In this document: positions 35,901 through 52,134 of the stretch, in pieces
How positions within the stretch are numbered: the first letter of the stretch is position 1
Layout of the letters: the number at the start of each line of letters is the position of its first letter
Assembly (NCBI GenBank): GCA_963965975.1
Contig: OZ014425.1
Coordinates: forward strand, 5,035,501 to 5,099,500
Direction of reading: 5' to 3'
DNA: 64,000 bases
From: Xestospongia bergquistia
Lineage: Eukaryota > Porifera > Demospongiae > Haplosclerida > Petrosiidae
Notes under the pieces: model-generated
Databases searched by the model: none
Told to the model about the DNA's origin: nothing
What the model saw: the letters and a program-made list of their open reading frames with translations, nothing else
Program-made: the position numbers and the translations under genes

Positions 35901-38900
35901 GTAATAGGATTTGGGTGTGGCTAATGGAAGATGTTTGAGTGATGTATTGCAACATGTTGTAGTCACACAAGAGTCAACTGACGAGTATGTAATGCTAGTC
36001 AAACCTGTTTTTATATCTTGTTTTCTTATAGCAAGTCCAAGCGTGTTTTTTCTATTCACAAACTTTACCAGTGGGTCACTAATGGTCGGTATTCCCGTCT
36101 GGATCAGCTTCAAACAGATATATTACTAGTTTTGAAACAAGCTCGTTTAAAAGAGGTGGAGCAAGAGGAGGAGCTTGCTAAAGCTTCATTAGCATTAGAG
36201 AAACAATACATCATCATTAGAGATGAAATATGTGGGAGTGGTCAGCTGCTATGGAGCCCAGCTCTAGAAGAGTGGACCCTAACGTAATTGCAATTAATTA
36301 ATTCTTAATTATAAGTCAATTCTATAGCCATTTTGAAGAGGAAACCAAAGAGATTAAAGAAGAGCATGAAGCAGAAGAAGAAAAAGAAATGGAGACGATA
36401 GAAACCATGCCTTTAATAGTAAGTTGATGACATTATAATAATGTCACAGGTAATGATGTATTATGATGTCATAGGTAATTCCTCCTCCTGAAGAGCGTAA
36501 TTTTGTAAATACTATTCAACATAATGATGTCATATATTACATAGGAGAATTTATTTATCTTCCTCCTAGGTAAGTTAAGTTAATTAATAATAGGAATTTA
36601 CCTGTTTATTAGAGAGCCACACCTCCCTCCTCAGATAGTACTAATTGAATCATTATGGACTGATAAAAAAGGAAACCCTGTGAGTTAATAAACCACACCC
36701 ACTAACAGATGTGGTCCTTCTCTAGTGGTTTGATGGGTGCTGGTTCTTCCGTCCACATGAAACATTTCATGTTGCATCTCGTAAATTTTATGAACGTGAA
36801 GTTTTCAAGAGTGATTTCTATAGCAGTGCACAGTTGAGTATTGTGTTAGGAAAATGTTGTGTATTGTTTATTAAAGATTACATTAAGTCGTTTCCACAGG
36901 TTAGTAATATAATACATAATTGATATGGTTTAATTATATTTAATTAATAGGGGTTCTCAGAAGAGGATGTGTATGTGTGTGAGTCTAGATATATTCATAA
37001 ACACAAGAGCATCAAGAAGATTAAAGTAAATTTCCTGTTTATAAAACCTGTTTTATAATAATATTTAGTTTTGGAATATACAACAAAATAATCTGACCAA
37101 GTTACTGCCAAGATTAACCCCTTGTTCACTGAATAAAATCCCGTCGGTATTTATTACTGGTAGAGAAATGTAAGTGACTACATGTAATATTGTAATGTTT
37201 AGTGGTCCATTAGATCTGAAAGAGGCTCTGCTGAGCCAATGGAACAAGAGTCTTTATCTGAACAAATTAAATCTGAAAATGAAGAGGGTATGGCAAGAGA
37301 AAAGAAATCAGAGTCTGTAGAGACTGATAGTGGAAGTCCTGATTCTAGTGGTATAATGGAGATGTCATTTTTCAGAGATTTAAAAGTACGACATGATAGA
37401 TATTTTACATTATCTAACTATATTTTTAATTTAAAGGAGGTGATAGCTACTGTTCCTAACCCTGAAGATAAATGCACTTACTTTGAACAGTTCTGTATTG
37501 ATGATAAGATCTTTAGATTAGGTATATTCTTTACTGAGACTGGTTCCTATTCTAACAATCCTCATTCTTATACTTACAGGAGATTTTGTTTGTGTTAGAT
37601 CAGATCAAGTACAACCATTTATTGCACGTATTGATAGAATGTGGACGGATTCAGAGTATGTTCATTCATTCAGTAACTCATTAATTCATATATTAATTCC
37701 TCCAGTGATGATCCTTGGTTCCGAGGTCCTTGGTTTGTTCGTGTCAAAGAAGTCCAACATGTTCCTACTAAAATGTTCTATGAGAGAGAAGTCTTTATGA
37801 GTAACATACAAGATACTAATCCTATGAGAAGTATTATAAGAAAATGTGCAGTCCTTTTCCCTACAGACTATGTCAAATGTAAGTATGTCACTATTGTCAC
37901 TATTGTTACTAATATCACTATTGTCACTATTGTTACTAATGTCACTAATATCACTAATGTCACTATTGTCACTATTGTTACTAATATCACTATTGTCACT
38001 ATTGTCACTATTGTTACTAATATCACTATTGTCACTATTGTCACTATTGTCACTATTGTTACTAATATCACTATTGTCACTATTGTTACTAATATCACTA
38101 TTGTCACTAATGTCACTATTGTCACTATTGTCACTAATGTCACTATTGTCACTATTGTTACTAATATCACTATTGTCACTAATGTCACTATTGTCACTAT
38201 TGTTACTAATGTCACTATTGTCACTAATGTCACTAATGTCACTATTGTCACTATTGTTACTAATATCACTATTGTCACTAATATCACTATTGTCACTAAT
38301 ATCACTATTGTTACTAATGTCACTAATGTCACTATTGTCACTATTGTTACTATTGTCACTATTGTTACTAATATCACTATTGTCACTATTGTCACTATTG
38401 TTACTAATGTCACTATTATCACTAATATCACTAACCTGATATCACTGTTTAGGGCGGCCTACTGAGATCCCTGAATTGGATGTATTTGTTTGTGATTCAA
38501 AATATAATGAAGTTGAGAAAGAGATTAAGAAATTAAAGAATCTTAAGGTAGAATGATCATAACAAAGATGATAATATCTCTTATCTAGCAATATCAACTG
38601 GATAATCAAGTCTTAAAAGACGAGATATATTACTTACCAGATGAACTTTTTCTTTGGAAGGTAATCTTTATCATCAAAACATTATGATAATAATTATCTT
38701 ATTTCTAATAGTGCCACTCCCCTGATTTATTCCCTCGTACAACTTCTATTCCAGTAGCCACACCTGCAAGCTCTTCAGCCTCACCTTCTCCTATCCCAGC
38801 ACCTCAACAAGTAACGTCTCCTCTTATATCTGTTCCAACTGCCAGTGGTCAAGTAACACTAACTTTACAACAATTACAATCTCTTCTAACTTCACCACTA

Positions 38901-47614: not shown

Positions 47615-50600
47615 ATGAGTGTCTCAAAACATGTTCATCCTGTGTCCCTAAGCCTTTCTATTATACAAGCTGTTGAACCTAGTAAGTTATAAAAACCTCT
47701 CTATGGTAAGTATGATCTCTCTTTCTCTAGCAACTAGACCACTTCCATTTTATGAAACCACTCGCAACAATCGACGTAAAAGGATATATGAGTCATTGAA
47801 ACCACTTCATCATTTTCACTTAGAGTATCAACTTGTTCCTGGCCAGGAGACAGTACCTATATATCGTACTGATATAGTCACTTATGGAATTGTAGCAAAA
47901 ATCTTCACTGAACAAGATGAGAGAGTTGTAAACACTTGGAATGAAAATGGACTCACATATTATGGATGGAGACACAGGTACAAACCTCATAATCTCATTC
48001 CAATATTAACAAGGAACGAAAATGAAATATTTTTGTTTTTCTATACAGTCATAACTTAACACTGACATTGGAATCACTACTTGATCTTTATGATCACACT
48101 CTAAAAGTCAGACTTTGGAACAGTCATGAGAAATTATCAGCTAGAGCAAAATATGATCGTCCCAAAGCATTCCGACTACCAGCACCCAAGAAACATGACC
48201 ATGATCAGTCTGAAGACAGTGAGGGGCTGACTAGTGGTGGTTCTAGACCTCATAGATTACCTGGTGTATATCATACTCTTTGTCCAATGTCAAAAGAAGC
48301 TAGACGTAAGAGTAGACGACCTAGTGAACTAATCGAATCCATTGATAGTGGAGAAGACATTGTAGAACACTTAAGTTCACCTCCTAAATCTTTGAAAATA
48401 CCTACTATTACTGAAGAGCCTGAAACTCCTGGAGATAAAGTTGTATATGAGTTAAATTCCAGTGCACCTGAGGCACTTTTCTCTAATGTACACATGAAAG
48501 AAACAATTCCAGTATTACCTCTACCTCAGGTACTTCCATCTACATCCTCAATGACTTGTTCAACATCTGTTAGTCCTGGTTTGAAAGGTTTGTACATCCT
48601 ATCTACTTATCCATTCGTATCTATGCTTCCATTTCTGTAATAGGAATTTCACGACGTCGTTTACAACAACTTCAACTTGAAGCAGCTGAAAAAGCTAGAA
48701 TTGATAAAGAGGGTGTGGTCGTTTTATCCATCAAACTAGCTGACCTCTTTGCTAGTCACACCTCTGTGACAGCTAGTCTAAAAGAGGGTGTGGCTAATTT
48801 GAAAGACTTTGAAATTTCCCTGTGTCTTGAAACTCCATTGATGTCTGAGGAACAAAGACGAGCTCTTAATCCAATGACAGTCACTGTTAAACAATGCCAT
48901 AATCTACCACCATTGTCTTTAACAGAATATAATCCAGCTTATGTGAGCTATCAGTTTTATGACAAGCCCAAGGTGTGTACCCACGGTCTTCCTTACTCTC
49001 CTCACATTTCCTGGAACACGAGTACTGTACTATTACTAGGGACAATTGAGTCAGATTTACTACTTGAGTATTTACGAGGACCACCTTTAATATTTGAAGT
49101 CCACGATAGAGATGAGAAGAATGATATAAGAAATTTAAAAGAGGGTGTGGTATTTGGAAATTTGTCAACTGATCAAATAATTGGCACTTGTGCTTATAGA
49201 AAAGGTATGTTCTATTGTAGTACATGTACATATATGGTATTACATGTACATGTATTGTAGTACATGTACATATACATAATATGGTCATGTAAATTTATTC
49301 TATTGTTATAGGACCTGTTCCAGAAACACAGAGTTTGTCATCTTTTGGTGAAGCAAAGTTAGATCTTAGTTCTCTTCTCTGTGGACTAACCACAATGACA
49401 TTTATGTTACCAATATTGAATCCCTGCTCTCATTCCATGAGGGTACAAAGAGAGGTCACCACATCCAATGGTAAGAAGAGAGTATATCAATCACATTTGA
49501 TATTACTCTCTCAGAGAATGTTCCTGACTACCTCCATTATGGTAGCCATCTCTCAGTACAAATTGAGGTGACTTATCCTCTCAATTTCCCTCCTCTACCA
49601 GTAATTGTTAGAGATAATCTTCTTTCTCTCAGACCACATGTAACTTTAATGCTTTCATTCTTTAATACTCTCAACTTCTTTACATAGACTCCCTTTGGTC
49701 GACTTATTTACCTTGTCTCAGCCAATACACCCACTTTAGCTCGTAAAGTACTAACTCTTGTCAATGAGATCAATACAAGAGAATTAGATTTAGAAGACTT
49801 ACCTGTAGAGACAAGAGATGCAACTCTCTCTACTTACAAACTAACTCAGTAAGTTTTATTATAAAGTACTTTTCTATATTGTCTTTAGTGAGCAGATGAC
49901 TAGTCCTCATTGTGATGTCATTACTGGATGTCATATTGAAGATAGAGTTAAACATATCTTTGTTCTTGAGGGACTACATTGGAAAGGGTTGAAGACAATA
50001 TGGGAACAGATTCCTCACCATCACAGTGAAGGTATATGCCCACCCACATACTGTTATTGTATTTATTATCACTAGACAAAAATGTTCTTAAAACTTTCTA
50101 TAATTCGGACTATACTTTTTCAAGTCGTCTCTATGGCAGCTTAGATGTTGACCTTACACATATCATATTGCCACACCCACTTGATGTCCTAGTTCAAGAA
50201 CCAAGACTTTATATTCGAGAAACAGTCCCTCAACTTTGTTTTATTGCTCTGATGAATCTTCATGAAGTAAGGAGGACATACTAAGATGAGAACTGATCTC
50301 TCTCTCTCTCTCTTTAGCTTGAGTTAGTACAAGAGTTAAATGATGTAACACGTAATGCTATGTATCCTACAGTTGAAATGATTACTTCTCTTAGTCTCTA
50401 TTGTTCACAAATGATCATTTCACCTACTGTCAATGAACAAGGTATTATATAATAATGTTACAGTTAGTAATATTGTATGTACAGATGATAAAATATTGCT
50501 ATCTAATGAGATAGAAGTGAATACTAAAAGACGACGACGAACTAGGAGTTGGGAACCTCTAAATAATAGTAACAGTGATTATGAGAAGTTATTAGAACAA

Positions 50601-52134
50601 AGGAGAGAGGCACCTGTTGTTGATTGGATCATGCATAATATAGTTAGTTAAATGTATCATGTGATTGTCATGTGATTTGGTCGCCAGATGAAGGCTCACA
50701 GATTGTCTGAAGGAGTCAATAAAATCAAAAGACCACACCACAAAAGATCAATGAGTGTAGATACTAACAAAGTAGGACATATTTTAAATTAATGTTGTCA
50801 TTAATCTCCTTCTTATGTAGCCAGTGTTTTTGTACAGCTCTCAGACATACAATTCAACTGTGTTAAGTAAAGCTGAATTGAGGCAACATTTACTGAGGAC
50901 TGATCCTCAGAGTAGGTATACTTATTGTCAATTCTATCACAGTATGACAGTTGAACCTGATGACTGGGAAGATGGTATTAAAAAGTACTGGCAGAGAAGC
51001 AATAGAAGAAAATGGAAGACAAAAGATGGGTAAGGACTGCATATTATCAAAATGCTGTATATAGTTCTTGTAGTTTTATTTATCCTGGTCCCAAGACTAG
51101 TTCAGAAAGCAACAAGCACATCAACAAACCAGACCAAGCAAGGATAGAAGAACTACAACAGGTATGGTTCGTTAGTAGAGCCTTTACAACATGTGAAGGT
51201 CCATTAGCTCAGTCGGCAGAGCGTCGTGCTGATAACGCGAAGGTCGTGAGTTCGAGACTCACATGGACCATCTTTTTTTTAATATTTTAATTTTAATTTA
51301 ATTAATGTGTTTTTCTTTTATTTAGTCATTTGTTGACAATCAACTACATACCAATACTCTGAAACCAACAGTAAACTGGTAAGTCCCATTGTTGTAATGG
51401 AAAACAGTTTACTTTTGATGTTATCAGTTATCATGGGATTATTTTGAATGTTATGATGTAATCTAGTGGGTATAATTATAACGTATATTGGATATATACT
51501 TTTAAATGATGAAATCCTACTAAAATAATGCTACTATGTAATCTACTCCATTAATACACATAGGATGCAGTACAGCTGGAATGAAAGAGCTACTGACTTT
51601 GAGCGGTACAAATCCCCGCCAATAGATTTTGGAGTTCATCCTCCAGTCACTATTCACTTAGCTGGAGACAGCCGTCAAAAAGAATTAAAAAGTTATGACC
51701 ATGAATATCAAAAGAAATGGAGATCTAAACTGGTTGTACATGATACTCAGTTCTATGTTTTGAGACAAGGACAAAAAGAATTAAGAATTAAAGGTCCTTT
51801 GGCAGCTACTCAACAAGATAAATTAAAGGGGCTATTAAAGGATCCTCCTATGAGACCCTCATTAGCACCCAATGACTTGACACCAGTTAATACCATACCA
51901 TCTCTTAGTGTTATACGAGATGATGAACGTGAAGTGGGTGTGGTTGGGTATTTGCCAGGTCCTGAATTCCAAAGGAGTCTGAAACGAGACTGTAATGTTA
52001 TTCCAATTAAAGCACCATTATCCCCACCTCAACTTGGCCTTCATCGAGCTAACTTTCAGTTGTACTATAATAGCCACACCCACTCATTAAATGACCACCC
52101 ACCTGAGACTAGAGTCCACTCTGTTCAGACATAA
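47615..52134 (+). CDS. CFAP92: Ciliary protein CFAP92 (KIAA1257, DUF4550)
   Basis: A ciliary/flagellar protein of unknown biochemical role. Exon 1 (MSVSKHVHPVSLSLSIIQAV) splices at 47685 to TTRPLPFYETTRNN. DUF4550 is at 47750-48180: HFHLEYQLVPGQETVPIYR, VTYGIVAKIFTEQDERVV, GWRHSHNLTLTLESLLDLYD, LKVRLWNSHEKLSARAKYDR, PKAFRLP. Then a Ser/Pro-rich linker and a long C-terminal part with a C2-like stretch (LRGPPLIFEVHDRDEKND) and IEDRVKHIFVLEGLHWKGL. The final exon runs 51563-52134. About 16 introns. Intron 51162-51325 holds a tRNA gene in sense orientation. The call rests on DUF4550 similarity recalled from human KIAA1257. Confidence 0.8.
51198..51270 (+). tRNA. tRNA-Ile, anticodon GAU
   Basis: A complete 73-nt cloverleaf: acceptor GGTCCAT pairs perfectly with ATGGACC (discriminator A); D-arm GCTC-AGTCGGCA-GAGC; anticodon stem TCGTG/CGCGA with loop CTGATAA giving GAU at positions 34-36; variable loop AGGTC; T-arm GTGAG-TTCGAGA-CTCAC, perfect. 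A T8 run, a Pol III terminator, begins 2 nt after the discriminator base. CCA is not encoded. It sits inside a CFAP92 intron on the same strand. Isoleucine tRNAs in animal nuclei normally carry AAU (inosine) or UAU, so GAU is unusual. Confidence 0.95.
51271..51281 (+). terminator. Pol III T-run terminator of the tRNA
   Basis: TC followed by eight T residues directly after the tRNA 3' end, as expected for RNA polymerase III termination. Confidence 0.8.

Follow-up and report, generated by a model that had tools for sequence, protein, structure and literature searches.

Eight eukaryotic codon boxes, that of isoleucine included, are read by inosine made from A34 of the tRNA. In the figures taken from PMC9858662, AAT is found as a tRNA-Ile anticodon in 97.85% of eukaryote genomes and GAT in 31.48%, so that the original prediction of a GAU anticodon unusual for an animal nucleus holds with regard to the near-universal AAT, but was too strict with regard to GAT. 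According to a passage of PMC8007984, Eukarya lack GAU, and Leu-GAG of Saccharomyces is given there as an exception of like kind. There G34 is present and A34 is absent, as also appears to be the case in the sponge Ile box described here, tRNA-Leu(GAG) standing in for AAG in Saccharomyces and Candida glabrata; however, deletion of the yeast gene does not impair growth of S. cerevisiae (PMC8007984), whereas no other reader of AUU and AUC was found in the sponge. Genomes with one of A34 and G34 tend to lack the other, a sparing that is broken by the large tRNA sets of cow, cat, and zebrafish (passages of PMC5372738). Miscoding and toxicity of G34 tRNAs in eukaryotic translation have also been reported, as has their relief by changes at position 32 or 38 (an excerpt of PMC8266599, citing Pernod 2020). 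Schistosoma mansoni is listed with tRNA-Ile-GAT (in part of PMC2770079), and tRNA-Thr(AGT) appears to be missing from Salpingoeca rosetta, which is unicellular and related to animals (in part of PMC6188563). The sections cited of an anticodon-shift survey in primates, flies, nematodes, and yeasts contain no shift between Ile isoacceptors (PMC3923123), and those of a glass-sponge genome paper mention the prediction of all 20 standard tRNAs and nothing more specific (PMC10280926). A sponge nuclear tRNA-Ile(GAU) without AAU was not reported among the matches listed from the open-licence PMC literature.

In this study, we describe a demosponge tRNA-Ile gene with the anticodon GAT in a 64-kb window, that is, the whole stretch of 64,000 nucleotides that was analysed. 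Its resemblance to eukaryotic tRNA-Ile(AAU/IAU) extends to the body, the D stem GCUC, U30·G40, G15-C48, A73, the lack of an encoded CCA, and the Pol III signals; it differs in that eukaryotic inosine is made from A34 while the sponge gene encodes G34, so that no inosine can be formed, and its T stem GTGAG is the Ile(UAU) form in the table of PMC9023262, where Ile(AAU) has GCGGG. The primate and human tRNA-Ile(GAU) is likewise a nuclear isoleucine tRNA with GAU. However, according to the passages cited, the human tRNA has an unusual C54·A58 (PMC9023262) where the sponge gene has a normal T54-A58, and it is nearly silent beside an abundant AAU (PMC10791582), whereas no AAU was found in the sponge. 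Bacterial tRNA-Ile(GAU) shares the anticodon and the expected decoding of AUU and AUC, but differs in promoter and 3' end, and AUA is read in bacteria by a modified tRNA-Ile(CAU) (a passage of PMC8007984) and in the sponge presumably by tRNA-Ile(UAU). The mitochondrial trnI(GAU) of the sponge itself (C21:7607-7682) has the same anticodon, but shares no flanks with the nuclear gene. On balance we think it probable that this is a nuclear, Pol III-type tRNA-Ile that has undergone a wobble A-to-G change and that, in two dispersed copies, has replaced the inosine-modified AAU for AUU and AUC.

The tRNA-Ile(GAU) gene and its genomic setting

The presence of a tRNA-Ile with a GAU anticodon inside a protein-coding intron, as originally predicted, was borne out by ARAGORN, by Rfam, and by the spliced reading frame (Table 1). 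ARAGORN made no other tRNA call in the window, and the Rfam family RF00005 matched exactly the same stretch over its full length (67.5 bits, E 1.5e-12, gathering score 29, model positions 1-71 of 71) as the only Rfam match at or above the gathering thresholds in the 64 kb. The score, the identical boundaries, and the single match together indicate that the match is real and not due to chance. Numbered position by position, the gene has the acceptor stem GGTCCAT/ATGGACC, the D stem GCTC/GAGC, the anticodon arm TCGTG-CTGATAA-CGCGA with the loop C32 U33 G34 A35 U36 A37 A38, the variable region AGGTC, and the T arm GTGAG-TTCGAGA-CTCAC. The cloverleaf had been called perfect, and all stems do pair; nevertheless, there is a single U·G pair, at 30·40, and in the unconstrained minimum-energy fold of the single sequence the acceptor and T arms are preserved, whereas the D and anticodon arms are lost (fold z -2.62; 2 of 200 shuffles fold equally well or better). 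An incomplete cloverleaf in such a fold is common among unmodified tRNAs, and despite the non-cloverleaf fold the gene is matched over its full length by the covariance model, in which tRNA structure is scored directly. We take it as almost certain that the gene is real and nuclear.

Table 1. Positions in the window of the tRNA-Ile(GAU) gene, its putative transcription signals, and the surrounding host gene
Feature	Position	Strand	Basis
Host gene exon (5' end approximate)	50821..51029	+	Reading frame
Host gene exon, just 5' of the tRNA-bearing intron	51074..51161	+	Splice sites, reading frame
Host intron GT..AG, 164 bp, holding tRNA-Ile(GAU); same strand as host gene	51162..51325	+	Splice sites, reading frame
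GTGAA leader, just 5' of tRNA-Ile(GAU)	51193..51197	+	Flank comparison
tRNA-Ile(GAU) gene, 73 nt, without intron, without encoded CCA, A73	51198..51270	+	ARAGORN, Rfam RF00005, tRNA numbering
Pol III A box TAGCTCAGTCGG	51205..51216	+	Sequence against consensus
Anticodon GAT (G34 A35 T36), with C32 and A38	51231..51233	+	ARAGORN, tRNA numbering
Pol III B box GTTCGAGAC	51250..51258	+	Sequence against consensus
T8 run, Pol III-type terminator	51273..51280	+	Sequence
Host gene exon, just 3' of the tRNA-bearing intron	51326..51378	+	Splice sites, reading frame
Final host gene exon, with stop	51564..52134	+	Open frames, splicing, Pfam

The internal boxes fit the A-box consensus, TRGCNNAGYNGG, and the B-box core consensus, GTTCRANNC. 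Directly 3' of the tRNA stands TCTTTTTTTT, which contains the T8 run that had been predicted as a terminator, and with both boxes present the locus has, judged from its sequence, the appearance of a working Pol III gene. A run of at least four T within 45 nt downstream was found at 42 of the 43 nuclear tRNA loci in our partial listing. The one locus without it is a low-scoring tRNA-Thr(AGT)-like gene (L046, C9:6361757-6361828, 48.5 bits), which has probably decayed.

The assembly comprises 146.46 Mb in 21 contigs, of which C1-C15 measure 5.4 to 28.2 Mb each and together about 146.2 Mb. Contig C21 is the mitochondrial genome (18,997 bp), with 25 tRNA genes called by ARAGORN on two overlapping pieces and open frames assigned by eye to cox1, cob, nad genes, and atp9; mitochondrial atp9 and many mitochondrial tRNAs are typical of demosponges. 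On C6, positions 3150000-3206000 (L048-L052) hold a large insertion of near full-length mtDNA, arranged as two inverted arms with 90-98% identity to the mitochondrial contig, in which the tRNAs follow the mitochondrial order and then the reverse order.

A genome search with the 73-nt tRNA gave four matches, namely two full copies with 100% identity, that of the window on C15 and another on C6 (L002, C6:1085488-1085560), and two partial matches at 79%, both of them tRNA-Met(CAT) genes. Apart from the tRNA itself, the C15 and C6 copies are alike only over about 5 nt on its 5' side and 10 nt on its 3' side, including the T run; their flanks are otherwise unrelated. Both have the GTGAA leader, with one extra T in the C6 copy. 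GTGAA also stands upstream of tRNA-Phe (L017), tRNA-Arg(ACG) (L042), and tRNA-Ala(TGC) (L011), a plain sighting without statistical control, and it is possible that this leader of several isotypes is a start-site motif. The partial listing of 43 loci covers 27 anticodon types; among the 26 other than GAU, 13 have two or three copies, and the remaining 13 were seen once. The GAU genes therefore resemble the rest of the tRNA set in copy number and in their T runs.

The search for tRNA-Ile(AAU)

The original prediction overlooked the second, identical copy. It also overlooked that tRNA-Ile(AAU) is apparently absent from the genome, and it is this that makes the GAU gene of interest. Four search designs, three based on patterns and one on homology, found no tRNA-Ile(AAU) in the 146-Mb genome. 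The anticodon-arm pattern, with any base allowed at position 34 and at most one mismatch, matched twice in the whole genome, and both matches were GAT. The pattern joining TAATAA to the T-loop core gave 50 matches (76 in the reversed control), none of which ARAGORN accepted as a tRNA, whether introns were allowed or not. The pattern from the D arm to the anticodon, which tolerates introns and any T loop, gave two matches with A34; these were repeat copies, and neither was a tRNA by ARAGORN. The homology search with human tRNA-Ile(AAU) gave no matches; it is a weak design, since it missed the GAU copies as well.

The other three designs all recovered both GAU copies. With G34, the D-arm pattern matched exactly the two GAT genes, and the T-loop pattern gave 44 matches. 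Five of these are the two nuclear GAT genes, the mitochondrial gene, and two copies within mtDNA insertions; the remaining 39 were assessed solely by eye. The T-loop design also detected A34 tRNAs of other boxes: ARAGORN confirmed two tRNA-Val(AAC) among 12 matches and two tRNA-Pro(AGG) among 11, the remaining 10 and 9 matches being judged by eye. For Ala, by contrast, none of 24 matches looked tRNA-like by eye. This failure is consistent with the A54 described for tRNA-Ala(AGC) (in part of PMC9023262), so that the Ala pattern is not a valid control and unusual tRNAs can escape the design. The pattern counts are lower bounds, some stretches read as N, the assembly may be incomplete, and the whole-genome Rfam tRNA listing is partial (63 of 5781 candidates scored), so the absence of AAU is to be read as a result of patterns.

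In five other boxes A34 tRNAs are retained (Thr AGT, Ser AGA, Arg ACG, Val AAC, and Pro AGG), and all five types are among those with two or three copies. A tRNA-Ile(TAT) with a 14-nt intron lies on C12 (L086:1481-1568, C12:6524857-6524944; 47.2 bits); ARAGORN calls it tRNA-Leu(TAA) if introns are disallowed. All three Ile codons are in use (ATT 69, ATC 20, and ATA 50), as counted over seven of the window's long open frames, six of which were taken from stop to stop, so that their ends may be non-coding. Within the limits of the pattern searches, the Ile box of this genome has G34 and lacks A34, and the genome obeys A34/G34 sparing for Ile with the purines reversed. As far as such searches can tell, tRNA-Ile(GAU) is likely to be the sole reader of AUU and AUC.

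Origin of the gene and competing explanations

The body of the tRNA had been thought reminiscent of bacterial or organellar tRNA-Ile, and this impression was not upheld. In comparisons with reference sequences, the sponge tRNA is identical to tRNA-Ile(AAU) of Drosophila at 62 of 74 columns and of human at 56 of 74, and to tRNA-Ile(GAU) of E. coli at 49 of 78. The elements singled out, TAGCTCAG...AGAGCG and AAGGTCG..GTTCGA, are ordinary for eukaryotic tRNA-Ile(AAU). Moreover, U30·G40 and G15-C48, both present here, are features of eukaryotic tRNA-Ile(RAU) in the part of PMC9023262 cited. Together with the full-length covariance match, the A and B boxes, the T run, and the lack of CCA, the gene has what is expected of a eukaryotic cytosolic tRNA-Ile, except that G34 in place of A34 is encoded in both copies. 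At the level of sequence, the body is like that of an animal tRNA-Ile(AAU) and is neither mitochondrial nor bacterial.

It could be argued that the gene is a nuclear mtDNA insertion shrunk to trnI(GAU), as the original prediction allowed, given that the anticodon is the same and that large mtDNA insertions exist on C6. However, the tRNA is only about 64% identical to the mitochondrial trnI (49 of 77 columns after manual trimming of the ends), whereas the C6 insertions are 90-98% identical to mtDNA, and for the 700 bp from 50901 to 51600, tRNA included, matches to mtDNA reach E 0.13 at best. Neither the near-identity to trnI nor the mitochondrial flanks expected of a dead insertion were found, and in view of the eukaryotic A and B boxes, U30·G40, the T run, and the two identical copies, we rejected a mitochondrial insertion, which now seems scarcely credible. 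Capture from a bacterial symbiont, an archaeon, or a virus would agree with GAU as the prokaryotic form and with the anticodon-arm pattern, which is shared by viral contigs carrying tRNA-Ile(GAT) (no matches in one scan and three contigs in another). But all three of these viral genes encode CCA, which the sponge gene does not, and the exact anticodon-arm pattern, with A or G at 34, had no matches in two scans of a prokaryote genome collection. Among the matches listed, the highest-ranked full-length ones were only 75.7% identical in phage records (E 9e-5) and 74.3% in plasmid records (E 1e-2). Identities of at least 95% occur in 14 of 110 records from phages and in 4 of 93 from plasmids, none among the best ten listed, the ranking rule implying that these matches cover less of the tRNA. 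None of 4926 matching E. coli records reaches 80% coverage, and the best five listed (70% coverage) are all tRNA-Thr. With no close full-length prokaryote match in these searches and no encoded CCA, which bacterial genes often have, symbiont or phage capture was also rejected, and we give it next to no credence.

As is usual for dispersed tRNA copies, the two genes have nothing in common beyond leader, body, and T run, and the human tRNA-Ile(GAU) amounts to just 0.002% of uniquely mapped iPSC reads (in part of PMC10791582); both facts would suit a dead retroposed copy, or the head of a tRNA-derived SINE, in which G34 is a random mutation. Nevertheless, the copies are identical and intact, with a T run directly after them and no SINE body; decay, a SINE tail, and high copy number were not seen, just two full copies being found in 146 Mb, and without these copies no reader of AUU and AUC was found. 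A dead retrocopy was rejected on these grounds and is most improbable. The gene might, on the other hand, be a working but minor isoacceptor beside an AAU gene that escaped detection through an atypical sequence, an unusual intron, or an assembly gap. The coexistence of GAT and AAT in many eukaryotes (figures from PMC9858662, above) speaks for this, as do the pattern-based nature of the AAU searches and the partial tRNA listing. We consider it unlikely, as none of the three patterns (anticodon arm, T loop, and D arm) finds the tRNA with A34 and each of them finds it with G34, and the T-loop design does detect the A34 tRNAs of Val and Pro.

It seems, then, that a nuclear tRNA-Ile(GAU) replacing AAU is the better account of these observations. 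Pol III would transcribe the tRNA from its internal A and B boxes, and G34 of the product, charged with isoleucine, would form a Watson-Crick pair with the C of AUC and wobble to the U of AUU with no A-to-inosine editing by ADAT2/3, while AUA would fall to tRNA-Ile(UAU), a separate tRNA whose gene bears an intron. Most economically, the gene would have originated from a nuclear tRNA-Ile(AAU) by one change of A34 to G34, an option already named in the original prediction and favoured by the evidence. The change would have spread to both copies, with complete loss of AAU to follow; alternatively, all copies may have changed by gene conversion. We infer the direction from A to G because AAT is near-universal among eukaryotes. 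One of the eight inosine boxes would in this way have reverted to the bacterial solution. We incline to the view that the sponge lineage dropped inosine decoding for Ile and that a hard-wired G34, accompanied by C32 and A38, is the sole reader of AUU and AUC. If this is true, an animal with GAU as its sole detected AUU/AUC reader would mean that the ban on G34 is not absolute and would offer a natural system for what makes G34 tolerable. Ile decoding is then predicted to be independent of ADAT2/3, and that of Thr, Ser, Arg, Val, and Pro to depend on it. Should the state be fixed in the clade, it would amount to a natural experiment on the avoidance of G34 by eukaryotes.

The host gene

The four host exons, when spliced, encode 306 residues in a frame that is open up to the stop, whereas the unspliced stretch 51074-51378 has stops in all three frames, which supports the intron around tRNA-Ile(GAU). 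The spliced 306-aa piece had no match in Pfam. Further upstream on the same strand, 2.6-3.5 kb from the tRNA, DUF4550 (PF15084) was found in open frames at 47652-48637, and these may form the 5' region of the host gene. Elsewhere in the window, a long low-complexity repeat at 37840-38465 is open in more than one reading frame of either strand (translations of the VTIVTNIT and SDNSDIS types) and adjoins exons of a plus-strand gene.
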